Shown here in pieces: positions 5,856-27,531 of a DNA stretch of 48,761 nucleotides; position 1 is the first letter of the stretch, and each line of letters opens with the position of its first letter. Made by a program: the position numbers and the translations under genes. The notes under the pieces are model-generated. The model saw only the letters and a list, made by a program, of their open reading frames with translations, was not told the origin of the DNA and searched no databases. The DNA comes from a virus: IMG/VR virus record IMGVR_UViG_3300042346_000462, positions 1 to 48,761 of that record; one strand, given 5' to 3'.

Positions 5856-5884
5856 ATAACCGACAACAACCAACCAACACACGC

Positions 5885-6124: not shown

Positions 6125-6130
6125 TCCATC

Positions 6131-6147: not shown

Positions 6148-6152
6148 ATCAA

Positions 6153-7616: not shown

Positions 7617-7624
7617 TCCACTTT

Positions 7625-7696: not shown

Positions 7697-7700
7697 AAAC

Positions 7701-8335: not shown

Positions 8336-9046
8336 TTACTGTGAAGGCTCGTCCTTGGGACGCAAGCGGCATTTGACCTCTCGGTGCGTATGCAGGCCAG
8401 CGTACATGCCGTAAGCCATTCCTAGGACCACGCAGGCACCAAAGGCCCACTTGAACCACCATGCCTCGACCATGTCCCTGATTACGAACGGCGTGGCCGC
8501 ACAGACGGCGGACAACATAAACATAACGACGCCAGCCTTCAGGCCTTTACCGATGAACGTATTAGCCACGATGAAGGCGGCACCAGCAAAGCCAAAGACC
8601 ATGGACATGAACAGGAACTTGTCCTGCACCTGCTTCCATGACTCCTCCTTCTTCATGGCCGTGATGCTGTTCTTGAGGTCTTGGTTCTCCTTGTCCTTCT
8701 CTGCGATTACCTTGGCCATCCTGCTTGTCTCTTCGTCGACCTTCTTTGCTTTGGCTTGCTCGGCTTCCATCGCTTTTGAATTGGTTATGGTCTTGTCGAA
8801 CTTGTCCACCTGCTCGGCGGTGGGCTTCTTGATGCCCGACAGCCTAGTCTCGGTCAGGTCGAGCAACGGCTTGCCCTTACCCTCGACGTTCTTCTTGGCC
8901 ACGATGATGGCGGCGGCTCCCTCGCTAGCCTCGTGCTCCAGCCTGTCGACGTAAGCGTCCTTGTCCTTGCTTGGGGGCTCTGGCTGTGGTGCCGTGGGCT
9001 TTGGAGCCGTGCAACCGCACAGCAGAAGAAGCAGGAAGTATCTCAT
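8336..9046 (-). CDS. Candidate spanin: lipoprotein-like, coiled coil, three TM helices
   Basis: 236 residues. The start MRYFLLLLLCGCTAP looks like a lipoprotein signal with Cys12 as possible lipidated residue (lipobox LCGC, imperfect). A Pro-rich stretch and a long charged helical region (about 30-140, Lys/Glu-rich) follow, then three hydrophobic segments near 144-165, 169-189 and 198-218, and a short basic tail. An outer-membrane lipid anchor plus periplasmic coiled coil plus inner-membrane segment is the layout of unimolecular spanins, which fuse the two membranes at the end of lysis. Three TM segments instead of one is unusual. It starts in an ATGA overlap with the holin. The alternative is a signal-anchored membrane protein of another role. 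Confidence 0.5.
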   Translation of the reverse strand: MRYFLLLLLCGCTAPKPTAPQPEPPSKDKDAYVDRLEHEASEGAAAIIVAKKNVEGKGKPLLDLTETRLSGIKKPTAEQVDKFDKTITNSKAMEAEQAKAKKVDEETSRMAKVIAEKDKENQDLKNSITAMKKEESWKQVQDKFLFMSMVFGFAGAAFIVANTFIGKGLKAGVVMFMLSAVCAATPFVIRDMVEAWWFKWAFGACVVLGMAYGMYAGLHTHREVKCRLRPKDEPSQ

Positions 9047-9339
9047 TTGGTACGGACGATTCGGCGGCGAATGACCTCAAGAATTTCAGAAGTAAACGTT
9101 CCGACAACGCTGTAGATGACGGCCTCATAGATTGGAGGCACCATGTCATGAACAATGAAATAAGCAATTATGCCGATGATGGCTCCAGCAATGGTACGCC
9201 TAGTCCACACCACCCAACTGTGAGCCTCGTCGCTGACCAGCAACCTGACCAAAGCACCAAGGGCTCCGAGGGCGGCCATGAGCCAGCCACCCTCCTTGAG
9301 GTCTTCGACAGTCTTAGTTAGATTCGGGTCTGGGCTCAT
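9043..9339 (-). CDS. Holin
   Basis: 98 residues with three hydrophobic segments: about 18-35 (GGWLMAALGALGALVRLLV), 48-64 (RTIAGAIIGIIAYFIVH) and 70-86, and a basic C-terminus (RRRIVRTK). Size, segment number and charge fit small phage holins, which form pores in the inner membrane at a set time. Its first 26 bases overlap the 3' end of the giant gene in another frame, and it overlaps the spanin candidate by ATGA. This makes a lysis cassette at the very end of the late operon; the cell-wall enzyme is encoded separately at 805-1368. Confidence 0.7.
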   Translation of the reverse strand: MSPDPNLTKTVEDLKEGGWLMAALGALGALVRLLVSDEAHSWVVWTRRTIAGAIIGIIAYFIVHDMVPPIYEAVIYSVVGTFTSEILEVIRRRIVRTK

Positions 9340-12300
9340 CTCGCTTCTGGCCTCTGCCTGCGGTGTAGAACTTGTACATCTCCACGGCCTGCTTGGTCAT
9401 GGCTTGATTGGAGTCCACGCCTCGGAGGGACATGAACGGGATGCCTTGGACAATCATCTTCTTGGCTTCTGCCACGTGATTGGCGTTCGGGTACTTGGGC
9501 CTGATGACGAGCATCGGACCAGTGAAGCCGACCATCCTAGCCGTCGCCGCCGCAACTTCGTCGGCACTGCTGGTAGCCCTTAGTCCCATGGCATGCATGG
9601 CCACGGAGTTTTCCATGGCCGTAGAGGCAGGGTCTCCAGAGTCAGGTCCGAACAGTCCGTGCACGGCGTCTTCCCTGTTCAGGCCCATGTTGGTCCCTTG
9701 CTTCATGAAGTCTTCCGTCGGCGTCTTAGAGCCGAACGAAGTGGTCATCTGGTTCTGCAAGTTGCCCGACTCGGCACCAGCCATGCCGCCAGCAATGGTC
9801 ATTCCACCGAACGCCACCTGCCTGCCGCTGGACCTAGCGTCCGCAGTAGAGAACAACTTGTTGGACATGGTCTGGGCCATCGACGAGGGCCCGTGTCCAG
9901 TCAGCATGAACGCTTCCATGGCATAAGCACCCATTCCCTTGTACGACTTCAGGAAGTTAGAGACGATGGGCACGGCACCAAGATACTTGGCGTTTTGAGC
10001 GGCCTTCTCTTGAGCCTCGTTGAATGACACGATGCCTTCGGCGATGGGCTTTCCAGTCTTCTTGTCGATGATGGAGTACTTTCCGTCGACCATGATGATG
10101 TCAGGCGTCTCAAAAGCGTCATGCGACACCTGATTGACGAGGGCGTCATGCATGCCTGCGTAGTAGATTTTGTTATGCCACAGCGGTGCACCATAGTTTG
10201 TGGCATATCCGTGGGTCCTGCCTACGGGAACGCTGAGGAACACGCCCTGAGGCTTGGCGATGTGGGTAGCCACACGCTTGGCGACGTCGGCTCCGTCCGT
10301 GATGCCAGACGACTTGATTTGCTCGAAGATGCTTTCGGGGGTCCTTGAGCCAGACCTCGTAGCCTTCACGAGTCCTTTGAGGGTCGCTTGGCTACTGTCC
10401 CTGTAAGTATTCGAGTGCTTGAGGGCCAAGTCGATGACGGACTTCACAGAAGCCCTCATGCCTATGGCCGTCTTGCCCGAGGTGAACATGGGAAGTTCGT
10501 CGATGATTTCCCTAGCAGACTCCATCAGGTGGTCTTCAAGAAGGCCCTCTACGTTGTTCCAAGTAATCTTTTTCTCATTCGAAAGGAACTGTTCCGCATC
10601 GGGAATCTGGTGCAGGTTTCCGTTGTGCAGTGCCTCAAGGAATCCTCCGTGAGTGGTACGCTTCTTGGCTTCATGCATGATGTAACCAGCCGCCATGAAC
10701 TCTGAGTACTTGAACCCGCTGATGTTAATAGGGGCGATGATGCCTCCGCCTAGGTTGAACAGGCCGACGATGTTCCTGTTGGAGTCGTAACGCTTCCTGT
10801 GATGGCGGGCGTCCATGACCACGAGGGCGTCTTTTCTGTTCTGCAGTGCCCTCATGACATACCAGTTGGTCATGACGCCACGATAAGCACCATCTTCGCC
10901 GAGAGGAATGGTGTCTGGGTATGTGAAGGCGTCGGAGTCCACCTTGCCCACCAAGGCCTCAATCTCTACGATACGTGCTTTCGCCTTCTCCATGACTGGG
11001 TCGGGAACATTGGCACGATAGACAGACACGATGGCGGCGGCGTTCATTTCGAACATCTTGCCGAGAAGCGTCCTAGACTCGGTATGCTGTGAGCCACGAG
11101 CCCTTGATACGGGGTTTCCGCTGGTGTTGTCGAAGTCGATGTCGACGGCCTGAATTACCTTCATTCCGTAATCACCAAGGCGGTCAAGTTCGGGGAAAGT
11201 AACTTCCTCTGGCTTGGTGAGAACCTTAAGAAAGGTCTCATTGATGTAACTCCTAGCAGAATCCCTCTTGGCCATGAGTTCAGCGGCTTGCTCGGCAGTT
11301 ACGCCAAGAACCTGTCCAACGAGCCTGATGTCCATGGCGACAGCCTGTGCGGGAGTCAGTTCGACAAAGTTGTAATCCATGTAACGCATCTTCGCCATGA
11401 GTTTCCTCTGGTTCTGCACGATGTCGTCAGGAGATATGCCCAACTCGACCAAGTCTTCCATGCGGACATACCTTTCAATGTTTGAGGCAATGTTGGTAAT
11501 CCTCTGGCCCTCAATCCTGTATGGACGCTTGTAATCTACTCTAATCTCGCTGGCATAAGCGGCCTCTGGTTGCCACGGCTCATGAATCTTGGAATGCAAG
11601 TCACGCTTGTTCCTGAAGTCGGTCAGCAGGTGTGCGGGCTCATAGTACAACTCCTCAGCCCTTTTAATGCCGATGAGCGTTTTCATCTTCCACTCCCTCA
11701 CTTGGTCGGTGCGGGCTTCGAAACGTTCGACCCTACGCCTGAAGTCCAGAAGAGACTCTAGAGCAATTTTGTCGAAGTTGACGCCATGCTTTGCGGCATC
11801 GTTGTAATCCAACTCGTTCTTGTAGTACTCGCCAAGCCAATCAAGTTTGCCCATGAACTCTGGGTTGAACTGAAGTCCGACGGAAGCGATGTACCTGACG
11901 AGGTTGTCCGTGCTGTTCTCGGACATGTAGTGCCAGTAGTTGTCCAGAGTGGTGGCGGCTAATCCCAAAACTCGCCCCATGCCGAATCCGTACACTTCTC
12001 CCATGGCTCCGTAGTGCAACTGTCCGCTTTCGGCTTGGTGGACAAGTTCGAGCATGGACTCGTGAAGTGCACCCTCGTACTTTTCGGTGAAGACGACAGT
12101 GGGTATGTTGTTGTCCTTGAGGCCGTACTTCTTTGCGGTGTCTGGAGATACCTTGTGGGTCTTTTCAAAGTCCAGAACGATTCCGTTTTCTTCGCCGACT
12201 AATCCCTTGTTGATGGCGACTGCGTAAAGCAAGAACGGCGTGGCCTTCCTGATTTCCCTATCAGCGATGACACGCCTGATTACAGTCTTGTGCTTGGACT

Positions 12301-15300
12301 TGACGCTGGACTGGACGTACTTGAGCGGGTCTGCGACGGACTCCAGCCTGTCCCTCTCGGCCAGAACCTGCTCCCTGAGGGTCTTGAGTTCTGCGAACAA
12401 CTTGCTGTTTTCGACGGACTTGAAGTCAGAGCCAAGGAATGCGTCTGGCTGAGGGCCGAACGTCGAGCCTTGGTACCTGTCTGACTGTAGTTCCTCAATG
12501 CCAAGTGCGGCGATGGTATCACGGCTCATGGACAGGGAGTTGCCCACCTCGGTGAGGTTGGCGTTCGCCCTGTGGTACGCAGTGACGATGACGTCGCTGT
12601 GGCGGGCGTGGCCAAGTTGCATGGTTCCACGGGGCGTGTTCTTGTGGCCAGAGTTGGCCATCCTGCTTTGGGCGACGGACTTGACCTTCATGATTCGCTC
12701 AATGGAGGCAATCTGCATGTCCAGCCTAGCGGCTTCTTCGGCGTTGTCTCCCACCCTTTCTCTCATCCTCTTAAGGTTGGCGATGTAGGCATTGGCCTTC
12801 TCAAGGCCCATGGAGGTATGTAGGGTGTCCCATCCGTACTGACCCACGCCACTGGTATAGCCAGCATAGTCTGGCTGGCCAGCGTTGTACTGAATGTTGT
12901 ACGGGTACGCCTCCAAGTCAGCCTGAGGGAAGACATTCCTGTTGGTCTTGTTGCCAAGGCCGATGACAGGCTCTGCTTCGCTGGCACCCCAGTCGTTGAT
13001 GACGTCGAGGTGCGTGGTGCTTGACCTGAAGTCTGGGATTTCGAAATCAAATCCAGCAAGCCTGCCGACGGCTTCAAGCCTAGCCTTGGCAAAGGCGTCA
13101 TTGAAAATGTGCCTGTAAGTTTCAAGGACAGGCTCCGAAATTACTTCGCCAGCACCTTTAGGCCGCACGAAGTTTTCGTTGTCTACGCTGAGTGCCTCGG
13201 TTTCTGCCGTCTTCCTCGGGTATTCCTTGGACGCACTCTCAAGGATGGTCTTGGCCCCTTCTGGGCCAGCCTCGACCATCTGCTTGGCGGCTTCCTTTTC
13301 GTAGAACTGTTCGAGGGCGGTCCTGAGAGCCTCGTCGTGCATCTTCCTGACAGTGGCAAGATAAGCCACCATCTGGCCCTTTTCTTCCTCGGCGGCGGAT
13401 TCAATCTCTTCCTCAATTAACCTGAGGTGTTTCTCACGCTCCCTGTGGAATCGGGTTGCGGCAGAGGCGACTGCCTTGCTGGGGGAATTGACCCTAGCGA
13501 GGTAAGGAGAAGCGGGCATCTCGTCAGCCCTGCGGCCAGTCTGCGGGTACATGGCCCACAGGAACTTGGCCACCTCCATCTTGGTCAATTTGTTGTCCTT
13601 GTTGTCGTAAAGAAACTCGGCAAGACCAAGCACACGCATTTCATTCTTGGAAACTGCGTTCTCGACGAACATCTCGTACCATTCGTTGCCCGTGGCGACC
13701 TCGACGGCCTTCTTGACTTTCTTGGTGGCACCATGCTTGTTCTTCTCCAGCATGGGAACAAGAGCGGTCCTGAGGACGTTAAGGGCCCTAGGTGCGAACT
13801 GGATGTAGGAACCTCCGATGCCGAACTGCAGGCCACGCCTGATGTCGTGCTCGAACTGTCCGACGCCACCAGTAGAAAGACTGACGCTACGCCTCTGAGG
13901 GGCCTTGCCAGTGATAGACTCAGGCTTGAGCAACATAGCCTGTGCGGCCTGTGCGGCGGCTTTGGTGTCGAACGGAGTGTCGATGTTGCCTACGTAGAAC
14001 TTGCCGTCATTGGCGTACACACGGGAGGTTTCAGTCTTACCCTTGGTGATGAACTCGTCCGAGACAGCAAGCCCAGCATATACGTCGGCCTTGCCGCTCT
14101 TGGGTCCGTAAGCCTTCTCGGCTTCATGTTCGGTAAGTTGATACTCGCCCTCCCTGAACAGGGCGGCGGGCACTTCGGCTTCGACGCCGCCAGCAAGCAC
14201 GCTGTCCCTGTACTTGTTCGCTTCCGCTTCGGTCCTGAATGCCATTACCTTTCTGGTCTTGCTGACCATGCCAGCCTCGGTGACGCCAGAAACTACGTCA
14301 TGGCCCACCATGTATCCGCTCTTGTCGCTCTTGCGAATAATGGTCAGGTTATGCTTCTTGCTGGAATCCCAAGCGTATCTTTCAAGGTGTGGCTGGTCTG
14401 GCATCAGCATGCCGATGACGGCAGACCTGTCTCCGTTCATGGCGATGCCACGCTCGACGTCAGGCATGTAGTATCCGCTGTCGCTGGAAGTAAGCCTTTC
14501 GCTAAGCCTGCCGATGTCAGACAGGAGTTGCGGATTGTACATGACCAACTGATTGGCGACCCTGTTGACCTCGGCGGTCGGGTCGTATCCAGAGTGGGCA
14601 ACTTCCGACACCCTGTACCCCTTGAGGGCTGGCATGCCGCCCTCTTTGGGTGCGGCAAGGGACTGCTCTTCGTGCATCTTGAGCATCTTCGTGAACGAAA
14701 TGACGTTGTCTTGGGACATCGCCCCACCCCAAGACAACTGGCCAGCCCAAGGGTTGTCTGACTCTCCCCTCCTGAGGTAGTGCTCCATCCTCATGACCTG
14801 TTGCATCTTGTCCTGATTCTTCAAGGCCATGCCGTGGTAAGCCGCCATGGTGAAGTAAGCAGTCTGAATGTCTTCGAGCGTTGCGTTCTTTGGCAGGATA
14901 ATGGTGCTGTAGGAATTCTCTGGAGAACTGGACATGAGCAAGTCGCTCAGGTCAGTGTACTGGCCTACGTGCTCGGAGTTACTCAATTCAAGGGAGGCAA
15001 AATCAAGTGCGTCACTTCCCTCCCTAATCTTGGCAATCGACTTTACGCCTTGGCCGAATTTATCGGGCGAGAGATGGGAACTGACTCCAGACACACGGGA
15101 GTTTCCGCCAAGCCTTCCGAGGAGGGCTCGCTTAGCCATGGACCTAGCGGCCAGTTCATGCTGTCTGAGGACTGGGGCTGAACTGAAATCCATTAACTTT
15201 GCGACGCTCGCTTGAATGGCACCCGCCTTGTTCTTGAATTCGGTAGAATAGGTTCCGAAGATGGGGAGTGCGTGGTGAGCGGACTGCGGAATGAGCGTCT

Positions 15301-18300
15301 TGCTCTGAACGTCCCAGCCAAGCGTACGCCTATGGGAATAGCCAAGGGCGTTCACGTAATTGTCGCTGAAGATGCCGTCGTAGTATCCGCTGACATCCGT
15401 ATTCGGAGAGATGTTCAGCATGATTCTTCCGTCCTCCAGCCTAGTCCAAGCGAAACCAACCTTGGGCTTGTCCCTTTCTGCCGCTATTGCGGAGTCGAAC
15501 GGCATGCCGCTCCAAGAGTTGCTTTGCACGTGGCCTGCATAGAATGCGTCAGCACGGCGGCTTTCATTCGGGAGTCCGACGTAGTTCAAAGACTGCCTCC
15601 TTGCCGCACTGAACCTAGCGGGCTGTACCGACAGGGTCTCTTTGCCCATGGCAGAAGCGATGGAAGCGAGCCTGCTAACAATCAATTCCCTGCGTACCCT
15701 GCTGGACACGTTTGCCTTCCTAGTCTTAAGGCTAAGTGCGTATTTGCCTCTGCCCGTAGTGCCTACGGACAGGGTTTTGTCCAGAGTGTCCACAAGCCAA
15801 GCATCCTTGACTCCGAACGAACCCTGAGTGTCGACGTATTCGTTTTCTAAAGCCTGTCGGGTGGCCATCTCAGTGATGGCGGTGTGCATGTCTACTTCTT
15901 CTGGGCGTACCCCAGTGACATATCCAGTGCCACGCTTGATGGCGGCCGCTTCGGTGTCCTTGAAAGCAACCCTACTGTTATTTCCGCCGAACAATGAACC
16001 GATGACTGGGTCATGGCCGTCCGAAGATTCAAGGTCAATGGAATCGACATCCATTCCGTAGGACTTCGAACGACGTTTCTTTTCTAGGTTACGCCTGACC
16101 TTCAGAATGGGCTCTTGGCCTTGTACAGTGACGGCAAGTTTTCCGTCCCGCCTGTAAGCATGCGGCCTAGGACTGCGGGTCTTGGTCTTTTTCATGGCGG
16201 CGACGCCGAAGAAATAACCACGCCAGAACTCTTGGTCTATGCCCTGAGAAGAGATTTGCTCGCTGACGTATTTGATTACTTCTGCAGGCAGGCCCTGCTT
16301 GGCCTGAGTTTTGTAGATTTCGCTGTCTCCGTACAGGTGGTCGTAGCCATAGGTGGCACCTTCGTCTACGGCCCTGATGAACTCGGCAGACCTTTCAGGC
16401 CTGACCTTTGACATCTTCACGCCCTGAAGGACGTTCAGCCTTAGCATGACTCCGTCAACTGCCTGCGTGGAAGAGGACTCGTACAGCAACCTGCTTAGGT
16501 TGTTCTTGTCCACCATCAGGAACCACTGGCTCAGAAGTTCGTTGAATGCGTTAGCCTGAGCCCTGTCACGCATGTCGGCGGTCTCGGCCATGGCCACCAA
16601 TTCATGGTATGGTCCGACATCAAGGGTGTTACGGACGTTCATTATGTGCCCTTCCTTGGCTTCTGCGAAGCCGATTAGGTCATGGGACAGTACGTAGGGG
16701 GCGACAAGGTTTCCTAGGACGGCTCGGTTAATCCTCATGCCTTGCGGATGAAGGACGGGGTCTTGGCTTTGACGCCCCATGTTGTCGAACACTCCGCCCG
16801 TGTTGTAGTCGGCCTGAATCTGGTCACGCCTATTGGACAATGCCCACTGGATGAGGGATTCGCCTCCTGCGTCATTGTGGAGAGAAGCAAACACGTTCTG
16901 GCTGAGGAACATCGTGCCATCCAGAATCTTTTCGATGTTGGAAGGAGGGGCCTCAAGGATTCCTTCTGCGTTGTAAATAGACCTCGTGATGAAATCCATT
17001 TCCACGTCATACCTCATGGACGGGGTGATTGTCGGCTGAGTGGCAGAGGGGGACTCAAAGATGGAGCCGCCGTACATGCCAGTGACCTTCGCCTCCATAT
17101 TGAACGCCCTCTTATTGGCCTGAAGGACGACGTGCCTAGGAACGGCATTGGAGGTATTGAAGGACTCCAGAGTGACGGAAGTGGGTGCGTCAGAGTCTGC
17201 CAGTGCCACGTCCACGTCGACGAACGAATCCTTCCCGTGGGTGATAATAGAGACGCCAGTCGTGTTGGTCCTTCTGGTGGAGCCCGTTCGAATCATGGAG
17301 CCGAAGTCTATGAGCCCAGACTGGTGTGCACCCTGTTGCTGGTAAAGTGGGTGCAACGGGCTTACCGCCCTGAGTTCGTCTAACTGCATCTGCATCACCT
17401 TAGCCATGTCGGCGTAGCGGGCCTTATGTTCGGCCTTTCTGACTTCAAGCCTGTCGGCAAGGGCTTCGATTGACTGCTCCTTTGTTAAGCCAGCCGCAAC
17501 GCCCTTTTCGAACTCCTGCTTGACGAAGGTTCCGTAACTGTAGTCGTCAAAATCAAAACTGCTGTCGCTTAGGTAGTTCTTGAAGCCATTGACCTCGTCA
17601 ATCATGCGTTCGATGTTCAGAAGCCCTTCTTCACCGACTTCGATTGCCTCCTGAAGCCTAGTAGCGATGTTGCCAATCGAGTCTTCGGTGCTCCAGTTGT
17701 TGTGAAGCGTGGACATCTGGAACGAAATTGCCTCCGCTCCGCCGTCCTTTATGACGCTCCTGATGTTCCTGTCCGCACCTACCCTGTCCAAGTAACTAAG
17801 GTTTCCATACGCCGTAATCTCGGCGGACGTACGATTTCCGCTGGGCTGGAACTCAAGTCCAGTCTCAACACGTGAAAATCCAGTGTTTGCATCAGACATT
17901 TCTCCGAGGTGCTGGAGCATGAAGCCGCCAGCAAGTGTCCTAAGTGACGGCATGTTTGGGTTGGAGAACGGCAACTGATAGGTCTCACCCCTTCCCGTTC
18001 CTCCTAGGTCCGAACTATCTGACAGGATTGATGTCTTGCCGTAGATTCTGTTCAAGCCGCCTTGGATATAACTGCCAGACACGGAGCCCGAGACGGCACC
18101 AATGTAAGAAGGCTTGGTTTGGTTTGACGTTTCTTGTGCACCAATGCTTTCCCAAGGAGTCGTTCTGATGAGGGACTTTTCAATTTCAGTCAGCATCAGC
18201 AGGGCAATCTTTGACTTGATGCTCCTGTCCTGTTCTCCCACCCTGAGCATGTTGTCCGCAAAAGCCTCAAGCATCGGCTTTATCATGTAGGACATACGCT

Positions 18301-21300
18301 CGAGCCTGTTGTTAAGTTTTCTTACTAGGTCCCTGTTGCTCGTAGAGCCTCCGACATTCTCGATGGTCTCACGCTGGAACCTAGAAGACAGGCCCTTTGC
18401 TATGCGGCTTTTGATTTGTGCGACAGCGGCCTTGTCAGCCTCTCCGTGAATGAACGTTTCGAGAGACGGCACGGAGAACTTGTATTCGGTTCCAGTAAGA
18501 ACGAACTTGCCAATGACGAAGTCCTTAGACTCGTACGAAAAGACCTGAGTCGAGTTATCGCCAATCATGGTACGCTCGGCAAAAGCCCTAGAGCGGTCAC
18601 CAAATGCCTTAACTAACTTCTGGGCGTTTTCGGTTTCCTTGGACCTAGCCATTACTTCTGGGCTTACAACCTCACCGATGCCGAATCCTTTCCTAGAAGA
18701 GGAATAAGGAAGCCTAGTCTGATGGTGGTTATAGGCGAAAATGTTCAGCAGGTCATTCTTAGTAAGGACCATGTCCTTATCCAGACTGCTGACCACCCTG
18801 TTAAGGAGAACGGCATCGGCCGCTTCCTTGCTGTACTTCCTGTCTCCTTCTCCAGAAAGAAGCCCCATGACTTCACCGACCTTGAACATCGGCGGGAATT
18901 CGTCAGACGCCACCAAGTCCATCAACGAGTTTCCAAGAGACAGGACGTCTTCGGAGGCGACCTTAGCACCAGCAATTTCCAAGATTTCGGCCATGGTGTA
19001 GGTGCCGTTTTCCTTGGTCTCGAACGGGACGACGTAACTGTTGCTTTCGGACCTGTCGTATTTGTCATACTGGTGCAAGGTGCCGAACTTTTGACTGAAC
19101 CTACGAACGGCGGCTTCATAGTCTCCTTCGACAATGTAGTTGCCAGTCTTGAGGGTGATTCGGCCGTCTTCGACAGCCCAGCCACGCTCAGAGACAACGA
19201 ACCTGTTGAGCATTGTCAGTTCATCCGAGGCACGGGCCAAAATGTGCCTTACCAGCGATAGTTTGCCCATCATGGCAAAGCCTTGGCTGTCTTCGGCCTT
19301 TTCGCCTATGCCGCCGATGGACTGCATGACGACATGGACTGGGTTGCGTCCTCCAGCCTCGAAGGCGTCAAGCCCCCTAGTCTGCCCTTCCATGAGTTGA
19401 GAGGGGGTGATGACGTCAGACTTGCCGATGGCGTTAGAGATGATGGCCATCACAGAACCTTCGGGCAGGATGTCGGCCGTGTACTTCCTAGGCTTTTCGG
19501 CGAGTTCGCTCTGAGTAAGCATACGCCTGTCCTCGGTCTCACGGGCCATCCGTTCCTCGGGCCTGATGAGGTAGTTGAGGTCGATGTAGTCCTCTAAGGA
19601 CTGCCTGATAAGGAGTGCCCTCTGCTCGGGCGTGGAGTGCTCCATGGCCACGACGCTCCTGACAAGTCCTAGTGCGGACGTAGCGGCCCTGAATTCGACG
19701 TCAAAGTGAGACTTGATGGAGTACTGGGCATTGGTCCTTCTGACCTTCTCCCTTATCTTCATCATGTTCTTGTAAGCGGAAAGGTACTCAGAAGGGGACT
19801 CGGCCCTGCCGACCTCAGCCTGCAGGTCTAGCACCTTCTTGGCGATTTCTCTGTCAATGCGGCCAGCGTCAGCCTCAGAGGCAATGATGCCCGCAAAGTT
19901 CCTCATGGCGGTCTTCATAAGGTGACCTGCCCTCATGTTGAGATGCCTGACTACTGGAGATTCGTTTGCCAAAGCCAGCCTGTTGGCAAGTTCTCCGACG
20001 TCACGGGCGGCGGTCTTGTCTGCGTCAGACCATAGGCTGTCGGCGGCGATGCTCTTTCCGATTTGCTCGGACAGCGAGAAGTTACTCCTGATGCCAAGCA
20101 GGTTGGCGTAATGGCCGAGCACGACCTCCCTGTTGATGTGCATGATGTGGCCATGCTCGTTCATCCAGCCAGCCTTCTCCTGAAGGACGTGCTGTGCCTC
20201 GTGCAGGACTATGGAGGCAAGAGGGTTGGTGGCGACGAACCTGCTGGACAGCGAGGTGTGGTCGTTGAAGACCATGCCGTCGATGTCGTGCTTAACGTTG
20301 AGGGCCGCAGAAGCGAACGAACGGATGCCAAGTTCGATGACATACTCGTCGTTCATCAGCCTGACGGCCGCACCGCCATGACCATCATACCAGCGGACTT
20401 TGACGTCCTTCATCTCTGGGTAGTAATAGTACATGGAGTCATGCCCGAACACCTTGCCCAGCGTCGTTTCCTTGCCGATGGGTGTGCTGTGCGGGATGTA
20501 CTTGGGGAGCCTGTCGTCAGCCGCCCTACGCTTCACCTCAAAGGCATAGTCAGCAAACGCCTTTTCGGCGTCTGGCATGCCAGCGAACGGGAGCATGTGG
20601 GGCTGTCCCTCTACGGAAGAAGTGTTGAGGTAGGCTTCGGCGTCTGAGAACTCAAAGGCGAGAACTCTCTTGCCGTTAAACAACAGTTCTTTGGCTAAGC
20701 CAGCCTTGATGACTTCGCTACGCCTGTCTGCGGTAAGCATGTCAACCCCGCCGATGGAGAAGTTGCTCTTGGCTAGGCCATGGAACTTGTCCCTAGTCTT
20801 CCTGAGATTGGCAATTTCCGCCATGTGTGCGTCGCCAGCCTTCTTGAAGGCATTGTGGAACTGGCTGGAGGCGGCAGTCTCATAGTGGCCTTCAATCACA
20901 GTCTTCTCCGCACCGACGTTCCAATAGGTCTGGGCCGAAATGTTGTAGTTGGCTACGGCTTCATCCCAATACTGGTCCATGAACAGGCTTTCGGCCCTAG
21001 CGTAATCCTTAGAGGCGGACTGCTCGCCCCACCTCTCCTCGAACCTCCTACGCATCAAGCCCTCATCCATGGCCAACGCAAGGCCTAGGGTGGCTTGAGC
21101 CATATGCCTGATGCTCTGAATCTTGGTCTCATCGGCAAGGTCCATGAAGGCACGGGCAAGTTCCTTGTGGTCTCCCTTGCTCATATACTCAGACCACACC
21201 TTGGATACGAGTTGGTCCTTGCTCTTGTCAGACGCCACAAGGCTCGTGGCTAGGTGGTAAAGTTTCTGAGGCAGTGTTTCCTTGGCAAACCAAGTATCCC

Positions 21301-24300
21301 TGATTCCGTCGGCGACGAGGGCGTCATGCTGAGACATGGAGCCGAAGTTCTTGCTGAAGGAAGCGGCCTTCATGGCTCCCCTTGGCTGTCTTGCGGAGGG
21401 AATAGTGCCAGCGTCCGTGCCGCCCTTGATGCCAGTCTTGCCGTTCCTGATGACAGTGACCATGCCATTAGGGTTAAGCAGTTGCATGTCCTGACCGCCG
21501 ATAATGAACAGGTGGTCGGAGATTCCCTCGCCTAGGTTCTCTGCGGTGTACTCTGGGGAGATGATTTCCTGACGCCTGATGCCTTCCTTGGTGGCAAACT
21601 GGACAGACCTCCTAGGAACGCTACCGATTTCACTGCTTGCGATGTCTCCAGTCTCGGAAATCTGAGGTGCCCAATGGGCGAATGCGGTCTTAAGCCCTTC
21701 CGCAACACGGCTTGCCGCCTCGTCTCCATCAATGGCAGAAAGGAGTTTGGTAAGTGCCTTGGCATGTGTGGTGACGTCCTTGGTGGTGCCGATGCCGACG
21801 ACAAGGTTTCCCTTCCTGTCGTAACCCTTGATAATCTTGGCGGTGTTCATGTCGTCGGGAATGAGCATCATGCTCGCCTCCCTGATGACGGAGATGAACT
21901 CCTTGTGGCCCTTGTCGTTCCAAGCCTTTAATTCGGCCCTAGTGGGCTGTCCAGAAGGGAAGCCCATGGCGGCGGCAATCTGCCTGACGGACGTCCTGAA
22001 ATCGGCTGGGATTTCGCTGTTCTTATTTAGTCCATCCAAGGCCGTTTTGAGTTCGGCGGCGGAGGTGGCACCGAGAAGTCCCCTGAACTGCTCAGACTTG
22101 ATAATCTTGTTCCTGCCCTGAACGTAGGCGACGACGTTTTCGTCCGCCGTGTCCTTGCCCTCACGGAAGGCCTTGATTGAGGAGTTAATCAGGGTCTGAA
22201 TAGACCTGTGGTTTCCGAAGTCAGCGAGAGCCTTTGGCTCAAGCGTCATGTAGGAAGAAGTAATGGCGTCTGGGTTTACCGCCTCGGCGACGTGCTGAAT
22301 CTCGCTCTGGATGTCCTGCAACAGGAACTCGGTACCGCTGGCTTGATGCAGGGAATAGTAGTTCTTATCGACGTACACCATGACCTCTCCGTTGGTCATG
22401 TGAGGCATCAATTTGACAGACTTGCCGACGTACCTGCTGTCTACCCTGTTGCCCTTGTCCTGATTCGGCATGATTCGTACGATGCCGAGATTGTAAGCCA
22501 GCCTATTGGACTCCTGATAGGTGCTGAGTTCGTTCTTGTTCTGGAGGAAGTCTCCGAAAGAGACAGGGATTCCATCCATCAGCGACTTGAACAGACGCTG
22601 TACAGTATCAACGTCCACCCACTTAGGCTCGAAGGTGGTGCCTCCGTCACGAACGGGGGCTAGGCTAAGGTTAACGTTGTTGGCCAAGATGCCCTTGGCT
22701 TCGTAGTATTCCTTGGCCTTGTATGACTGTTCCTGAATCGACCTGAGCCTTTCGGGCCTGCTCATCTGCTCCCAGCCTTCTTCCGAGGGCAGGGATAGGA
22801 TGTCCGCAGGATTCATGGCCTTCCTCAGGTGCTTCTGTGCCGCCTTGAATGCCTTGTCCTTTTCGTTGTACCTGCCGACAAGTCCGCCGAACGGGCTGAA
22901 CACCTTCCAGCCGCCTCCAGAAGTGGAGCGTTCCCTGATTACCCTGTAGCCCTGACCGCTTGCGAACACATTGGCCGAGATTTCCTCAAACCCAGCCGTA
23001 GACAGGTTACGCCTAAGGGGCTCGTAAGACCTGCCATGGTGGTAGGGGAACGGGGATGCGGAAAGTTTCTCGACGCCGATGAGGTTCTCCAGCCGCATCG
23101 AGTGGATGGGGAAGTTAGGGTCTTCATGGTCGCTGAAATACCCTTCACGGGGAGCATTGAAGTAGGACTCGTCCTTCCTTTTGCTGGCACCAAAGGTCTC
23201 ATACATGATGTCCCTGACCTTCTCGGCATTAGCACCGAACTTTGGCCTGAACAGCGTAGCGGAGTCCACCCTAGCGGAAGGCTCCCTGAGCATGTTCATC
23301 ATGTAATGGTGGAAGAACTCGTTGAATTCTCCGATGTTGGTGAAAAGTGCCTTTACGTCCGCCCTAGACCACATCTTCAACTGCCTGCGGTGAATGGCGG
23401 TGTAGTCGACGACAGTGGTCAGGAATCCACCACGGGGTTTCCTCAGGGGCCTGCCCTGCGAGTCCGTGGTCCTGAGGCTTACCTTAAGTTCGAAAGGAAC
23501 GAACACCCTGTGCGTAACGGGAACGTCCTCTCCAAAGATACGCTTGAACAGGTTGCCCATCGTAACAGTTCGATGGCTGGCGTTAAGGGCCTGACCATAG
23601 AACATGTTAGGGCTAGTGAATCCAGAAGACTCATAGCCAAGATAGGTATCCCTAAAGGCTTTTGCGATTCGGGCAGACTCGGCGTCGAGGTATCCGCTTG
23701 TAACAAGTGCATCCAGCACTTCGTCCTTCATGGTGTAGACGTCGGCAGACCTATTGCCGTGCTCATCCACAGTAAACTTGGGCTTCAGTTCGTCAGGGAG
23801 AGAGTCGAAGACCTTGAACGCACCTTCCGCAGACTTGGCGGACATGTCGTTGCGTTCTTTCTCGCCCTTAAACGTGGCTCCGTTGCCGCTGATGTTAAAG
23901 AGGAACTCCTTGCGGTGCTTTTTGGCCACGGCCAACTGCATCTCAGGAGAGAGTTGATGGACGGGTGCGTCATTGAGCGACCTCGCCGACTGAATCATGT
24001 TCTTCAGAAGGTTATCGGCTTCTGGGTGACGCCTATAAACGCCGTCGTCGTAAATTTCAGCCTGAATGGTAGGCCTGCCGTCAGGAGCAATCGGTCCATG
24101 CTTAGCCCTGATGCCAGCAAGTTCCATCTCCGACGACACCCTCGACAGACGTTCAATGAACTTTCGTTCAAAGTACATCCTCAAGGGCCTGTCACTGTCT
24201 GGAATAGAAAGGTCTTGAAGGTTCGTGTGAACGAACATGTTTTCCGCATGGCCTGCGACAAACTCTTCAAACATGTATTTAAGAGGGTTCATCACGCCAT

Positions 24301-26563
24301 CAGCACCATACTTTCTTGCGATTTCAACGGACGGGATGTACGCCTCAGAGTAAATAAGCGGTTGCCCGTCCTTTCCTGATTTTTCAAAACTGGCAATTTC
24401 TGAGCCGTAAGAACTGGTCCTGAGTTGCTTGATGGCATCCTCAAAATACTTCACGCTACCTACAGTGTTAGCGTCGGCGGCGTAAATTTGCTTGGCACGC
24501 TCTTGTGCCAAAGACCTTGCCTGAGGATTGCCATCAAGAACTCCTTCCCTGCCGAGTTGTTCGATTGCGATTTCAAGGGAATTTCTAATGGCGGCAGTCT
24601 CAGCCATGAACTTGTCAGTTCTAATGCCCTTGTTTTCCCCAGTTCCAAAGTATTCAAGCAGATGCCTTCCCAATTGGCCACGCTCGGTGAGGTTGTAGAC
24701 GAGAAGGTGGCTTAGCACCTCATGGCCAAAGTCGGTAGGTCTGTAGATGTCTGGGTTCATCCAGACTACTGGCACCATTTCCCCTGAAGAGGCCTCGTGT
24801 GCCAAGAAGAACGAACCTCTGGCATCTTTGGTGATGCCCTGTGCGGACAAGCCCTTGCTCTCAAGCAAGGCAAGGACCTCGGCCGCAGGAAGGGCAGAGC
24901 CGACAGCCTTACGCTTCTGGTTAGGGTCCATAATCAGGTGCATCATCTGTGCGACATACCTGACGTTGGAAGAAGCCCTAGTGGACTTAGCCCTATCCAC
25001 ATCCGTGGTCATCTTCCTGAAGAACGAGCCCAACTCTGGGTTCATGCTGTCAATCTTCGGCATGAACTGAGTGTCGAAGTCCCTGATGTAGTTTTCGTGC
25101 TGGAATGCACCGCTGACATTGGCCCAAAGATGCCTGAAAGCACCGCTGTATCCGCCCCACACCATGCCCATGGTGGCACCGCCGACCATACCCCGCTCCC
25201 TGTCGTTCATGTAGCCTAAGCCAGCGAAGAACAGGGAGTCCTTGTAGGCATGCTTCAATGCCGCAGTGGACATCTGGAGGACGGGGTCGACTGTGACGTT
25301 GATGGCCTTGGCGGCGTTCTGAGCCGAGCGGCTCATGAGTTTATTGCCAGCCACACGCTCAATGACAGTAAGGCCGTTGATTTGGTCGGCCGTAATGACG
25401 CCGTCCGCAAGGAGGGTGGCCTGCTCTCCGAACTCTCCGAGCAACTCGGCGGTGGTCCTGAGGCCAAGCGAGCCGAGATAGCCTACAGTCTGCCTGACTT
25501 CGCCAGCACCAATGTCAGCCAAGCCGTTGATGGCCTGAGTCTGTGCCATGTTCCTAGCGTGTGCGGAATTAATCCCAGCCCTGCCAGCAATGGCGTCTAT
25601 GTTGCCCCCCACGAGCCCTTCGACCATGTTGGCAGGGATGGAAATAGCCTTGGAAGCGGCCGTAGCCATCGTTCCAGTAGACCTGAGTGCGGCACCATGT
25701 GCCAATGAATCCAACTTCTTACCAGCGTCGGTAAGGGTGCCCATCACCCTAGCGTAATAAGAGGCTTTTGCGGCTTGGGCCGCTCCAGCCCTAGCCATAT
25801 TGGTAGCCGCACCTACGGCAAGAGCCTGAGAGGCACCTCCAGTGAACGGAGCCGCAATCATGGAGCCGAGTTCAAGACCCAAGAAGGACATGGCGTGGGC
25901 CACCTTCGGGTTCCTGAGGGACCGCAGGGTCTCTGCGGTGTCGTTGTCCATGTTCACATAAGGCAGGGCCTCGTAAACGGACATGTCGCCCTGCATGATT
26001 TTGTTGCTATCCCAGAGGTACCTGCGGGCATGGTTCCACTGCTGGGCTTCCTCCTGCCAATTTTTGGAAATTTTGCCGCTGGTGATGGCACCAATGGCGG
26101 ACTTGAACTTAAACAGTGGGGAGGTCGGGTTCTCTGACTCGGCAAACATGCCCCACATGTCTCGCAGGGAGCGGACGACGCCTTCTGCGGCACCGCCGAC
26201 AACCTTGATGGGGTTTGGGTCTTCGACGATACCCTCGACCAAAGTGGCGGGGAGTTTTGCGATTTCGGCACCAGTCTCGCCGATGATTTCAAGCCAGTCG
26301 GTGTGACGCTTATTCATTCCCTCTACCAACTTTTCCCAATGCTCCTTGGCGTCTGGCCTAGACAGGTCGATGCCCTTGTTAGGGTTCATCTCGTACCACT
26401 TGGCGACGTCGTTATCGACGCCTGCGTCACCCCACAGGTCCTCCTTAGGTTGGGCTTGGGAGGGTTGCAGGCTCATCCTGCCACCAGCGGCACGAATAGC
26501 GGCCGCATAAGCGGCCGTCTGGTTGATGTCGTTGGGGTCCTTAGGGGAGTACGGAGCGTCCAT
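9314..26563 (-). CDS. Giant 5749-residue polyvalent / ejected internal virion protein
   Basis: An uninterrupted frame of 17,250 bases, about 35% of the genome, starting at a TAATG junction. The N-terminal 400 residues include Ala/Gly-rich hydrophobic helices (SMIAAPFTGGASQALAVGAA). At 2121-2125 HEAQH within NPLASIVLHEAQHVLQ is a zincin metalloprotease motif of the kind found in large polyvalent phage proteins. At 614-619 HEVLSH has one residue too many for HExxH. At 4690-4695 EELQSD matches a motif common in such proteins. At least four short Tyr/Gly strand-then-helix modules recur. Gene order (after nozzle and small internal proteins, before holin) matches ejection proteins of short-tailed phages. 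I infer it is packaged and delivered with DNA, acting on host defences or the envelope; this is not proven. No RNA polymerase motif set was found. Confidence 0.8.
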   Translation of the reverse strand: MDAPYSPKDPNDINQTAAYAAAIRAAGGRMSLQPSQAQPKEDLWGDAGVDNDVAKWYEMNPNKGIDLSRPDAKEHWEKLVEGMNKRHTDWLEIIGETGAEIAKLPATLVEGIVEDPNPIKVVGGAAEGVVRSLRDMWGMFAESENPTSPLFKFKSAIGAITSGKISKNWQEEAQQWNHARRYLWDSNKIMQGDMSVYEALPYVNMDNDTAETLRSLRNPKVAHAMSFLGLELGSMIAAPFTGGASQALAVGAATNMARAGAAQAAKASYYARVMGTLTDAGKKLDSLAHGAALRSTGTMATAASKAISIPANMVEGLVGGNIDAIAGRAGINSAHARNMAQTQAINGLADIGAGEVRQTVGYLGSLGLRTTAELLGEFGEQATLLADGVITADQINGLTVIERVAGNKLMSRSAQNAAKAINVTVDPVLQMSTAALKHAYKDSLFFAGLGYMNDRERGMVGGATMGMVWGGYSGAFRHLWANVSGAFQHENYIRDFDTQFMPKIDSMNPELGSFFRKMTTDVDRAKSTRASSNVRYVAQMMHLIMDPNQKRKAVGSALPAAEVLALLESKGLSAQGITKDARGSFFLAHEASSGEMVPVVWMNPDIYRPTDFGHEVLSHLLVYNLTERGQLGRHLLEYFGTGENKGIRTDKFMAETAAIRNSLEIAIEQLGREGVLDGNPQARSLAQERAKQIYAADANTVGSVKYFEDAIKQLRTSSYGSEIASFEKSGKDGQPLIYSEAYIPSVEIARKYGADGVMNPLKYMFEEFVAGHAENMFVHTNLQDLSIPDSDRPLRMYFERKFIERLSRVSSEMELAGIRAKHGPIAPDGRPTIQAEIYDDGVYRRHPEADNLLKNMIQSARSLNDAPVHQLSPEMQLAVAKKHRKEFLFNISGNGATFKGEKERNDMSAKSAEGAFKVFDSLPDELKPKFTVDEHGNRSADVYTMKDEVLDALVTSGYLDAESARIAKAFRDTYLGYESSGFTSPNMFYGQALNASHRTVTMGNLFKRIFGEDVPVTHRVFVPFELKVSLRTTDSQGRPLRKPRGGFLTTVVDYTAIHRRQLKMWSRADVKALFTNIGEFNEFFHHYMMNMLREPSARVDSATLFRPKFGANAEKVRDIMYETFGASKRKDESYFNAPREGYFSDHEDPNFPIHSMRLENLIGVEKLSASPFPYHHGRSYEPLRRNLSTAGFEEISANVFASGQGYRVIRERSTSGGGWKVFSPFGGLVGRYNEKDKAFKAAQKHLRKAMNPADILSLPSEEGWEQMSRPERLRSIQEQSYKAKEYYEAKGILANNVNLSLAPVRDGGTTFEPKWVDVDTVQRLFKSLMDGIPVSFGDFLQNKNELSTYQESNRLAYNLGIVRIMPNQDKGNRVDSRYVGKSVKLMPHMTNGEVMVYVDKNYYSLHQASGTEFLLQDIQSEIQHVAEAVNPDAITSSYMTLEPKALADFGNHRSIQTLINSSIKAFREGKDTADENVVAYVQGRNKIIKSEQFRGLLGATSAAELKTALDGLNKNSEIPADFRTSVRQIAAAMGFPSGQPTRAELKAWNDKGHKEFISVIREASMMLIPDDMNTAKIIKGYDRKGNLVVGIGTTKDVTTHAKALTKLLSAIDGDEAASRVAEGLKTAFAHWAPQISETGDIASSEIGSVPRRSVQFATKEGIRRQEIISPEYTAENLGEGISDHLFIIGGQDMQLLNPNGMVTVIRNGKTGIKGGTDAGTIPSARQPRGAMKAASFSKNFGSMSQHDALVADGIRDTWFAKETLPQKLYHLATSLVASDKSKDQLVSKVWSEYMSKGDHKELARAFMDLADETKIQSIRHMAQATLGLALAMDEGLMRRRFEERWGEQSASKDYARAESLFMDQYWDEAVANYNISAQTYWNVGAEKTVIEGHYETAASSQFHNAFKKAGDAHMAEIANLRKTRDKFHGLAKSNFSIGGVDMLTADRRSEVIKAGLAKELLFNGKRVLAFEFSDAEAYLNTSSVEGQPHMLPFAGMPDAEKAFADYAFEVKRRAADDRLPKYIPHSTPIGKETTLGKVFGHDSMYYYYPEMKDVKVRWYDGHGGAAVRLMNDEYVIELGIRSFASAALNVKHDIDGMVFNDHTSLSSRFVATNPLASIVLHEAQHVLQEKAGWMNEHGHIMHINREVVLGHYANLLGIRSNFSLSEQIGKSIAADSLWSDADKTAARDVGELANRLALANESPVVRHLNMRAGHLMKTAMRNFAGIIASEADAGRIDREIAKKVLDLQAEVGRAESPSEYLSAYKNMMKIREKVRRTNAQYSIKSHFDVEFRAATSALGLVRSVVAMEHSTPEQRALLIRQSLEDYIDLNYLIRPEERMARETEDRRMLTQSELAEKPRKYTADILPEGSVMAIISNAIGKSDVITPSQLMEGQTRGLDAFEAGGRNPVHVVMQSIGGIGEKAEDSQGFAMMGKLSLVRHILARASDELTMLNRFVVSERGWAVEDGRITLKTGNYIVEGDYEAAVRRFSQKFGTLHQYDKYDRSESNSYVVPFETKENGTYTMAEILEIAGAKVASEDVLSLGNSLMDLVASDEFPPMFKVGEVMGLLSGEGDRKYSKEAADAVLLNRVVSSLDKDMVLTKNDLLNIFAYNHHQTRLPYSSSRKGFGIGEVVSPEVMARSKETENAQKLVKAFGDRSRAFAERTMIGDNSTQVFSYESKDFVIGKFVLTGTEYKFSVPSLETFIHGEADKAAVAQIKSRIAKGLSSRFQRETIENVGGSTSNRDLVRKLNNRLERMSYMIKPMLEAFADNMLRVGEQDRSIKSKIALLMLTEIEKSLIRTTPWESIGAQETSNQTKPSYIGAVSGSVSGSYIQGGLNRIYGKTSILSDSSDLGGTGRGETYQLPFSNPNMPSLRTLAGGFMLQHLGEMSDANTGFSRVETGLEFQPSGNRTSAEITAYGNLSYLDRVGADRNIRSVIKDGGAEAISFQMSTLHNNWSTEDSIGNIATRLQEAIEVGEEGLLNIERMIDEVNGFKNYLSDSSFDFDDYSYGTFVKQEFEKGVAAGLTKEQSIEALADRLEVRKAEHKARYADMAKVMQMQLDELRAVSPLHPLYQQQGAHQSGLIDFGSMIRTGSTRRTNTTGVSIITHGKDSFVDVDVALADSDAPTSVTLESFNTSNAVPRHVVLQANKRAFNMEAKVTGMYGGSIFESPSATQPTITPSMRYDVEMDFITRSIYNAEGILEAPPSNIEKILDGTMFLSQNVFASLHNDAGGESLIQWALSNRRDQIQADYNTGGVFDNMGRQSQDPVLHPQGMRINRAVLGNLVAPYVLSHDLIGFAEAKEGHIMNVRNTLDVGPYHELVAMAETADMRDRAQANAFNELLSQWFLMVDKNNLSRLLYESSSTQAVDGVMLRLNVLQGVKMSKVRPERSAEFIRAVDEGATYGYDHLYGDSEIYKTQAKQGLPAEVIKYVSEQISSQGIDQEFWRGYFFGVAAMKKTKTRSPRPHAYRRDGKLAVTVQGQEPILKVRRNLEKKRRSKSYGMDVDSIDLESSDGHDPVIGSLFGGNNSRVAFKDTEAAAIKRGTGYVTGVRPEEVDMHTAITEMATRQALENEYVDTQGSFGVKDAWLVDTLDKTLSVGTTGRGKYALSLKTRKANVSSRVRRELIVSRLASIASAMGKETLSVQPARFSAARRQSLNYVGLPNESRRADAFYAGHVQSNSWSGMPFDSAIAAERDKPKVGFAWTRLEDGRIMLNISPNTDVSGYYDGIFSDNYVNALGYSHRRTLGWDVQSKTLIPQSAHHALPIFGTYSTEFKNKAGAIQASVAKLMDFSSAPVLRQHELAARSMAKRALLGRLGGNSRVSGVSSHLSPDKFGQGVKSIAKIREGSDALDFASLELSNSEHVGQYTDLSDLLMSSSPENSYSTIILPKNATLEDIQTAYFTMAAYHGMALKNQDKMQQVMRMEHYLRRGESDNPWAGQLSWGGAMSQDNVISFTKMLKMHEEQSLAAPKEGGMPALKGYRVSEVAHSGYDPTAEVNRVANQLVMYNPQLLSDIGRLSERLTSSDSGYYMPDVERGIAMNGDRSAVIGMLMPDQPHLERYAWDSSKKHNLTIIRKSDKSGYMVGHDVVSGVTEAGMVSKTRKVMAFRTEAEANKYRDSVLAGGVEAEVPAALFREGEYQLTEHEAEKAYGPKSGKADVYAGLAVSDEFITKGKTETSRVYANDGKFYVGNIDTPFDTKAAAQAAQAMLLKPESITGKAPQRRSVSLSTGGVGQFEHDIRRGLQFGIGGSYIQFAPRALNVLRTALVPMLEKNKHGATKKVKKAVEVATGNEWYEMFVENAVSKNEMRVLGLAEFLYDNKDNKLTKMEVAKFLWAMYPQTGRRADEMPASPYLARVNSPSKAVASAATRFHREREKHLRLIEEEIESAAEEEKGQMVAYLATVRKMHDEALRTALEQFYEKEAAKQMVEAGPEGAKTILESASKEYPRKTAETEALSVDNENFVRPKGAGEVISEPVLETYRHIFNDAFAKARLEAVGRLAGFDFEIPDFRSSTTHLDVINDWGASEAEPVIGLGNKTNRNVFPQADLEAYPYNIQYNAGQPDYAGYTSGVGQYGWDTLHTSMGLEKANAYIANLKRMRERVGDNAEEAARLDMQIASIERIMKVKSVAQSRMANSGHKNTPRGTMQLGHARHSDVIVTAYHRANANLTEVGNSLSMSRDTIAALGIEELQSDRYQGSTFGPQPDAFLGSDFKSVENSKLFAELKTLREQVLAERDRLESVADPLKYVQSSVKSKHKTVIRRVIADREIRKATPFLLYAVAINKGLVGEENGIVLDFEKTHKVSPDTAKKYGLKDNNIPTVVFTEKYEGALHESMLELVHQAESGQLHYGAMGEVYGFGMGRVLGLAATTLDNYWHYMSENSTDNLVRYIASVGLQFNPEFMGKLDWLGEYYKNELDYNDAAKHGVNFDKIALESLLDFRRRVERFEARTDQVREWKMKTLIGIKRAEELYYEPAHLLTDFRNKRDLHSKIHEPWQPEAAYASEIRVDYKRPYRIEGQRITNIASNIERYVRMEDLVELGISPDDIVQNQRKLMAKMRYMDYNFVELTPAQAVAMDIRLVGQVLGVTAEQAAELMAKRDSARSYINETFLKVLTKPEEVTFPELDRLGDYGMKVIQAVDIDFDNTSGNPVSRARGSQHTESRTLLGKMFEMNAAAIVSVYRANVPDPVMEKAKARIVEIEALVGKVDSDAFTYPDTIPLGEDGAYRGVMTNWYVMRALQNRKDALVVMDARHHRKRYDSNRNIVGLFNLGGGIIAPINISGFKYSEFMAAGYIMHEAKKRTTHGGFLEALHNGNLHQIPDAEQFLSNEKKITWNNVEGLLEDHLMESAREIIDELPMFTSGKTAIGMRASVKSVIDLALKHSNTYRDSSQATLKGLVKATRSGSRTPESIFEQIKSSGITDGADVAKRVATHIAKPQGVFLSVPVGRTHGYATNYGAPLWHNKIYYAGMHDALVNQVSHDAFETPDIIMVDGKYSIIDKKTGKPIAEGIVSFNEAQEKAAQNAKYLGAVPIVSNFLKSYKGMGAYAMEAFMLTGHGPSSMAQTMSNKLFSTADARSSGRQVAFGGMTIAGGMAGAESGNLQNQMTTSFGSKTPTEDFMKQGTNMGLNREDAVHGLFGPDSGDPASTAMENSVAMHAMGLRATSSADEVAAATARMVGFTGPMLVIRPKYPNANHVAEAKKMIVQGIPFMSLRGVDSNQAMTKQAVEMYKFYTAGRGQKRDEPRPESN

Positions 26564-27531
26564 TAATCAAAAGTAATGCTATTGTTGTCCCAGATGCTGT
26601 TCTGAGTGGTCCTGTTACCTTCATTGTCTTCGGCCAAGAAGTCCACTCCGTTCGCATTGGCGGTGTTCTTAAGTTTTTCCATGGTCATGGCCCTGACTCT
26701 CTTGAGGAGCGTACGTTCGTTGCCCTTGAAACGGGTGAACCAACTGGAGGCTCGCTGGGGGGTCATCGACTGGGCAAACGAGATGTCTTTGTCGGACACG
26801 TTGCCGCCAAGACCCTTGCTACCAGTCATGACCTTCATGAAGTCCTTGGTGATGGACGTTTCAAGAGCCCTAGCCTCAGTGGAGGCCTCGCTATAGCCGA
26901 AACCCGTCAGCATGGCGTTCTCGGAGTAAATCTTTTCCAGCCTAGACAGGTTGCCTAGAAGCATTTGGGAGTCCACGACGAGACCCCTGAAGGAGTCAGC
27001 CGCTTCGTCGCCGCCCTTGAAGGGGACGTTGGTGACGCCGTACTGGTTGGCGTAGGCATGGACAGGAAGGTCCTTCATGCCCTGAGGGGTGGCTACCTGC
27101 CTGCTACCCTTAGGAATGATACGCCACGTAGCCTTGGTAGGAGCGGCGTTCTTGTCGCCGTTTTCTGGCAAGCCCATGTCGAACTCGTATGGGTCGTACA
27201 TCTGGAAGACGGCACGTCCGTTCTTGGAACCAGTAAGAGCCGCCGCCGCACCAAAGTCTTCGATGGCGTTGGCATAGAACTCGGCGTCCTTGGCGAACCT
27301 AGAGGGCTCCTCGGGAGCCTTTTGGCTTCCGCCGCCACCACCGCCCATGCCCACGGACTGACCGCCACCACGCTTCTTGCTTTGAAAAAGCGGAGCCGCC
27401 TCAGACAGGGGGTTCATGCCCATCTGCTTGGCCATCATGGCCCGCTCTGGGTAGTAGTACCCCTCCTGCTTAGACTGGCCTAAGACGTCCTGAGGGCTGA
27501 CGTTGAACTCGTCGTTGAATCCAGAGTCCAT
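26563..27531 (-). CDS. Probable internal virion protein, 322 aa
   Basis: 322 residues. The N-terminal third is polar with a Gly run (GGGQSVGMGGGGGGS near 55-70). The middle and C-terminal parts are helical, with segments such as VDSQMLLGNLSRLEKIYSEN and TKDFMKVMTGSKGLGG, a pattern I associate with head or ejected proteins of short-tailed phages, without a family name. It ends in a TAATG junction with the giant gene and begins in a TAATG junction with the gene before, so it is translationally coupled to both. The likely role is inside the capsid or in the ejection apparatus, by position. Confidence 0.55.
   Translation of the reverse strand: MDSGFNDEFNVSPQDVLGQSKQEGYYYPERAMMAKQMGMNPLSEAAPLFQSKKRGGGQSVGMGGGGGGSQKAPEEPSRFAKDAEFYANAIEDFGAAAALTGSKNGRAVFQMYDPYEFDMGLPENGDKNAAPTKATWRIIPKGSRQVATPQGMKDLPVHAYANQYGVTNVPFKGGDEAADSFRGLVVDSQMLLGNLSRLEKIYSENAMLTGFGYSEASTEARALETSITKDFMKVMTGSKGLGGNVSDKDISFAQSMTPQRASSWFTRFKGNERTLLKRVRAMTMEKLKNTANANGVDFLAEDNEGNRTTQNSIWDNNSITFD

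Follow-up and report, generated by a model that had tools for sequence, protein, structure and literature searches.

A single giant gene in the window (the whole stretch of 48,761 nucleotides analyzed here, IMG/VR record IMGVR_UViG_3300042346_000462) very probably encodes a polyvalent ejection protein, packaged in the virion with several modules and delivered ahead of or with the phage DNA. This sequence-based assignment follows from the place of the gene, the exclusion of cysteine from its product, and homology to known polyvalent proteins. The gene is one ATG-to-stop frame of 5,749 codons (17,250 bases, 9314-26563, minus strand), and its product has a predicted mass of 636 kDa and a predicted pI of 6.6. 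All protein features described below lie on the same minus strand.

An exact 127-bp repeat at both ends of the window identifies it as a circular assembly with a unique genome of 48,634 bp. The giant gene occupies 35.5% of this genome, in agreement with the sequence-only reading, which had described an intact 17,250-base frame filling a third of a 48.6-kb genome. In relatives the repeat measures 87, 99, 100, 123 or 127 bp, a variation to be expected from assembler word sizes rather than from a biological terminal repeat. The phage belongs to an uncultured family with genomes of 48-50 kb, in which the giant takes up more than a third of the genome. In IMG/VR, the large terminase leads to no fewer than 107 related virus contigs. 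Of 27 such records queried with the C-terminal 1,749 residues, 26 contain the giant, and a single stop-free frame was extracted from 25 of these 26. Where the contig end does not badly cut the frame, its product ranges from 5,271 to 6,460 residues, and a scan with the most conserved block (residues 980-1280) yielded 40 loci. Among annotated phages, tblastn with the first 3,000 and the last 1,749 residues found no homolog, and two scans of prokaryote genome contigs for a host or prophage returned no relative of either the terminase or the most conserved block.

Purifying selection along the frame is an observation rather than an assumption. Across eight pairs, overall dN/dS was 0.08-0.37, and no 300-codon segment free of synonymous saturation reached 1, which bears out the strong selection that the sequence-only reading had supposed to keep the frame intact. 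The possibility it had raised, that several genes were joined into one frame during assembly, is ruled out by the same stop-free frame in 25 other records and by the purifying selection all along it. The highest segment value (0.72, residues ∼1500-1800) came from the G016/G026 pair and falls within a hypervariable stretch (residues 1300-1900, 20864-22666) that combines the lowest conservation with the highest dN/dS. This stretch may be adapted to host factors.

The strongest sequence evidence that the giant is ejected is the complete absence of cysteine, which had been overlooked in the earlier reading: there is not one in 5,749 residues. Base composition is ruled out as the cause, since the two shifted frames of the same DNA contain 190 and 210 cysteine codons. 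The exclusion extends across the family, with 56 cysteines in 112,299 residues (0.050%) in the giants of 19 near-complete genomes versus 0.89% in the other ORFs. A partial homolog in G007, with 13 cysteines in 3,955 residues, counts against the reading. Phages T7, P22 and N4 provide a calibration, as their ejected proteins are established (T7 gp14, gp15 and gp16; P22 gp7, gp20 and gp16; N4 gp50, gp51 and gp52). These nine proteins together contain one cysteine in 7,864 residues, in T7 gp14, where 58 would be expected, and cysteine is absent from 8 of the 9 versus 6 of 36 other sampled proteins of the three phages (Fisher p 1e-4). The feature is not exclusive to ejected proteins: the T7 and P22 scaffolds, the N4 coat protein and P22 gp26 also lack cysteine. 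For N4-like virion RNA polymerases, the absence of cysteine has been tied to passage through the tail and the oxidising periplasm (PMC2784036, PMC3715699, PMC3915230), and the same absence and rationale have been published for the giants of StenR_269 and Zobellviridae (PMC10747016). Cysteine goes unmentioned in a review of ejection proteins (PMC8954989), so the wider rule may have drawn little attention, although we do not claim that it is new. The calibrated count suggests a simple way of picking out ejected proteins in any phage genome, where they are otherwise hard to recognize because they evolve fast.

Genomic neighborhood analysis places the giant in a cysteine-free cassette. Immediately upstream, on the minus strand, lie five predicted ejection proteins without any cysteine: ORFs of 322 (26563-27531), 269 (27531-28340), 496 (28347-29837), 169 (29840-30349) and 197 residues (30349-30942, counted from its ATG). 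A cysteine-free ORF of 301-334 residues occupies the place of the 322-residue ORF in 13 of 13 genomes, and in the same genomes the four ORFs next upstream of the giant, 52 in all, contain a single cysteine, in one ORF of G023. The giant and its cassette form the nearly cysteine-free run after the tail genes that characterizes podophage ejection proteins. Downstream, a minus-strand gene (8336-9046) has a translation with a lipobox-like start, a coiled coil, two hydrophobic segments and five cysteines, and is a candidate holin or spanin-like lysis gene; a cysteine-containing ORF of 236-375 residues follows the giant in 13 of 13 genomes.

Elsewhere in the genome, three further cysteine-free minus-strand ORFs of 242 (44976-45704), 240 (45806-46528) and 195 residues (46535-47122) lie just upstream of the terminase gene. 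The last two are very basic, and the trio may represent additional internal or DNA-binding virion proteins. The plus-strand early module (1397-8202) encodes an exonuclease VIII-like protein, an O-like replication initiator, a DnaC-like loader and an Erf-like annealing protein, accompanied by genes for tRNA-His and tRNA-Arg.

Database searches with pieces of the giant and with its diverse homologs found no convincing family in Pfam, PHROGs, NCBIfam or the PDB. Profile searches of the PDB returned nothing, and the Pfam LPD models gave no convincing match. Scattered weak matches to LexA, Birna_RdRp_C, Ntox44, EutK and similar families were treated as chance, as other family members gave no support. 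Structure comparison, in contrast to these searches, was informative for the N-terminal part. The AlphaFold2 model of residues 480-1290 (22694-25126; pLDDT 73.9, pTM 0.60), which span the first zincin-type motif and the most conserved block, matched eight phage proteins in BFVD by Foldseek at E <= 1e-3, with E-values from 6.7e-15 to 1.4e-4. Several of these are named 'large polyvalent protein associated domain' or 'ART-PolyVal-like'. With long flexible models low TM-scores are to be expected, and they are low here; the matches are therefore read as homology of parts rather than of one rigid fold. The same model matched nothing in the PDB by Foldseek. Within this core, the block of residues 980-1280 (22724-23626) is the most conserved of the protein, with a mean column identity of 54% (alignment A5). 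Just ahead of the core lies a glycine-rich segment, LGYxNxRxEGAxxGxGMGxAWGGxSGxxRH (residues 450-478, 25130-25216), which is near-invariant in all 23 homologs covering it and possibly contacts a membrane.

The core also carries the first of two zincin-type motifs, HEVLSH (residues 614-619, 24707-24724), in which H614, E615 and H619 are invariant, as is E767, the candidate third zinc ligand. The motif takes the HExxxH form in the clade of the window and the HExxH form in most relatives (HELAH, HEYGH, HEVAH); the HExxxH variant is known among polyvalent metallopeptidases (Iyer et al. 2017, PMC5512222). In the model, its helix comes after two strands, and weak matches of this region to Peptidase_M78 and M4 were confined to single members. 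The second motif, HEAQH (residues 2121-2125, 20189-20203), is an invariant HExQH in 25 sequences (alignment A1), which also share an invariant candidate third ligand, E2337, in the context Y....P.E..A..T..R. HEAQH had been listed in the sequence-only reading, together with an EELQSD motif near residue 4690; both are real, and the motif at 614 had been missed. At 614 as at 2121, the sequence has the layout of the zincin-like domains of large polyvalent proteins, namely HExxH or HExxxH with a downstream glutamate. Shuffled versions of the giant contain on average 0.23 HExxH and 0.003 EExQSD per protein. Both zincin-type domains are putative zinc-binding peptidases. In each of two homologs, G023 and G024, HExxH occurs four times, near 625, 2300, 3500 and 5025. 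Far downstream, a conserved DARHHxxRG-like motif (residues 5251-5258, 10790-10813; D5251 and R5258 invariant, alignment A11) is a possible further active site.

The zincin-type motifs bring with them the most serious alternative, to which we assign a minority chance: the giant would be a polyprotein that its own zincins cut before or during packaging, with only some of the pieces entering the virion. Two conserved motifs, and four HExxH in G023 and G024, are compatible with this, and P1 DdrB sets a precedent, being processed to about 76 kDa before packaging, with autoproteolysis proposed (Iyer et al., PMC5512222). However, the N4 virion RNA polymerase is packaged unprocessed despite its zincin motif (PMC5512222), and cysteine is excluded from one end of the chain to the other, which suggests translocation in full. 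The polyprotein model keeps the ejection idea and changes the timing of processing.

The C-terminal part contributes the EIQSD module (residues about 4290-4900, 11864-13696). Its landmarks are TGxEWxxx..E.R..GL..L, GH...H.R and EELQSDRYQ, and the EELQSD motif itself (residues 4690-4695, 12479-12496) belongs to an EExQSDxxQ signature that is invariant in 26 sequences. A scan of viral contigs with a DNA pattern for EEIQSDWxQ gave 80 ORFs. In hhalign, the GH...H.R...EEIQSD..Q region of these phage ORFs matched the giant with 94% probability (E 1.1e-7). The giant and ORFs of other phages also share the TGxEWxxx...E.R..GL..L landmark ahead of EIQSD in identical order, so that TGxEWxxx, H.R and EExQSDxxQ follow one another in the giant as in the module at large; the combined two-landmark profile reached an E-value of 6.3e-9, versus at least 0.09 for reversed decoys. 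Among the 80 ORFs, 70 lack cysteine altogether, and the set contains 16 cysteines in 99,688 residues (0.016%) versus 0.70% in other ORFs of the same contigs. This low content probably marks the module as belonging to ejected proteins across many phages. HExxH occurs in 12 of the 23 EIQSD ORFs of at least 1,500 residues, versus 1.0 expected from shuffles, and one EIQSD ORF carries Pfam ART-PolyVal (E 6.5e-14). A supposed pairing of HEIQH with EIQSD did not hold up: no ORF around any of the 81 EEIQSDWxQ sites contained HE[IVLAMF]QH, although the larger ones often have HExxH in other forms. The module also occurs in cultured phages: gp34 of Pelagibacter phage HTVC028P, for example, sits among internal virion protein genes, and gp33, gp34 and gp35 of that phage are all cysteine-free. 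No Pfam model matched at the module in a scan of EIQSD-bearing stretches, and a low-confidence structure model containing it found no match in BFVD.

The Foldseek match of residues 480-1290 and the sequence match of residues 4290-4900 are independent tests, and together they tie the giant to phage polyvalent proteins. One chain combines two zincin-type motifs, the polyvalent core fold and the EIQSD module. The polyvalent nature proposed in the sequence-only reading holds up by fold and by the EIQSD match; its suggestion of anti-defense or envelope functions found no such backing, and searches of Pfam, PHROGs, NCBIfam and the PDB assign nothing further.

These modules also weigh against a mainly structural interpretation, in which the giant would be mainly an internal-core or DNA-organizing protein serving assembly or the ejection conduit and have no enzymatic role. 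In its favor, the core proteins of T7 and P22 have the same gene order, no enzyme is recognizable over most of the length, and the glycine-rich segment at 450-478 could touch a membrane. Yet both zincin-type motifs and their candidate third ligands are invariant, as is EExQSD, and together with the homology to polyvalent proteins they point to catalytic parts; we regard this interpretation as improbable.

Under the preferred reading, a polyvalent ejection protein, the giant would enter the cell together with the DNA as infection begins, as the cysteine exclusion and the gene place suggest. The head of this short-tailed phage would contain a few copies, along with the four or five smaller cysteine-free products of the upstream genes. 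The chain would pass through tail and cell envelope in an at least partly unfolded state, ahead of the DNA or together with it, and without cysteine no disulfides could trap it in the oxidising periplasm. After entry, the chain would refold into a series of domains that would be the first to act, with the N-terminal polyvalent core and its zincin-type motif followed by the second zincin-type domain and the EIQSD module, alongside several further modules. The zincins may then release modules by self-cleavage or cut host proteins. A bolder version, which we offer tentatively and consider more likely wrong than right, holds that the 636-kDa chain enters whole and is cut by its own zincins, with the 980-1280 block and the EIQSD module among the undescribed effector enzymes released to make up the entire first-wave arsenal, and that cysteine exclusion is a general rule, readable from sequence, for envelope-crossing phage proteins. 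An early intracellular effector, made in the infected cell and never packaged, is very unlikely: the giant lies in the late (structural) strand adjoining a lysis gene, the entire neighboring cassette is cysteine-free, and the known homologous type is packaged.

Comparison with N4 addresses the remaining alternative, an N4-type virion RNA polymerase. The ejected N4 gp50 (3,500 aa) is likewise giant and cysteine-free and also has an HExxH, located in its C-terminal part, and the upstream gp51 and gp52 are cysteine-free like the ORFs upstream of the giant (Schitoviridae ejection proteins). Unlike these features, sequence similarity between the two is undetectable: hhalign of gp50 against all parts of the family gave at most 6% probability, and profiles of all thirds of the giant found no RNA polymerase among PDB chains. 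Both tests disfavor a polymerase, which we judge even less probable than the early effector. T7 gp14-gp15-gp16 and P22 gp7-gp20-gp16 are consecutive and nearly cysteine-free and have the place and role expected of the cassette, but they are much smaller, and no transglycosylase-type domain was recognized in the giant.

The large polyvalent proteins (PMC5512222) are among the closest known systems: they too are very large and multidomain, with zincin-like motifs and genes adjoining structural genes, and the core fold of the giant matches proteins annotated as large polyvalent or ART-PolyVal. Unlike them, the giant has no convincing Pfam LPD, ART, methylase, helicase or other named domain, evolves fast, and fills one third of its genome. 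The DarB-like giants of Lessievirus (BcepIL02 gp70, 4,667 aa; JC1 gp69, 4,515 aa) offer a parallel in layout. BcepIL02 gp70 stands at the end of the structural module ahead of holin and endolysin, lacks cysteine and has one HExxH, and JC1 gp69, at 22% of the genome, was found in virions by mass spectrometry (PMC9144972). The Lessievirus giant takes 22% of the genome versus 35% here and is annotated DarB-like, whereas no part of the present giant matched the adenine methylase and SF2 helicase of DarB in Pfam, PHROG or NCBIfam; BcepIL02 gp70, for its part, lacks the EIQSD motif. By description, the giants of StenR_269 and Zobellviridae are also large and cysteine-free; their annotation is internal virion protein or putative virion RNA polymerase (PMC10747016). 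Phage C75C1 (OQ984151), the nearest annotated terminase relative (31.5%), has cysteine-free proteins of 2,770, 376 and 1,344 aa in its structural module; its giant shows no detectable similarity to the 5,749-residue protein and has neither HExxH nor the EIQSD motif.

For a phage of only 48.6 kb, a 17-kb gene maintained by purifying selection must bring a large benefit, and the 26 diverse homologs expose conserved modules through which the functions of a phage-delivered protein can be tested one by one. Giant cysteine-free podophage proteins are already known (N4 gp50, BcepIL02 gp70, JC1 gp69), and because the comparison covers these named systems rather than all phages, we claim no size record. 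The family adds to this kind a new member that is larger and looks unrelated, and among the systems compared here it devotes the greatest share of its genome to a single such protein.
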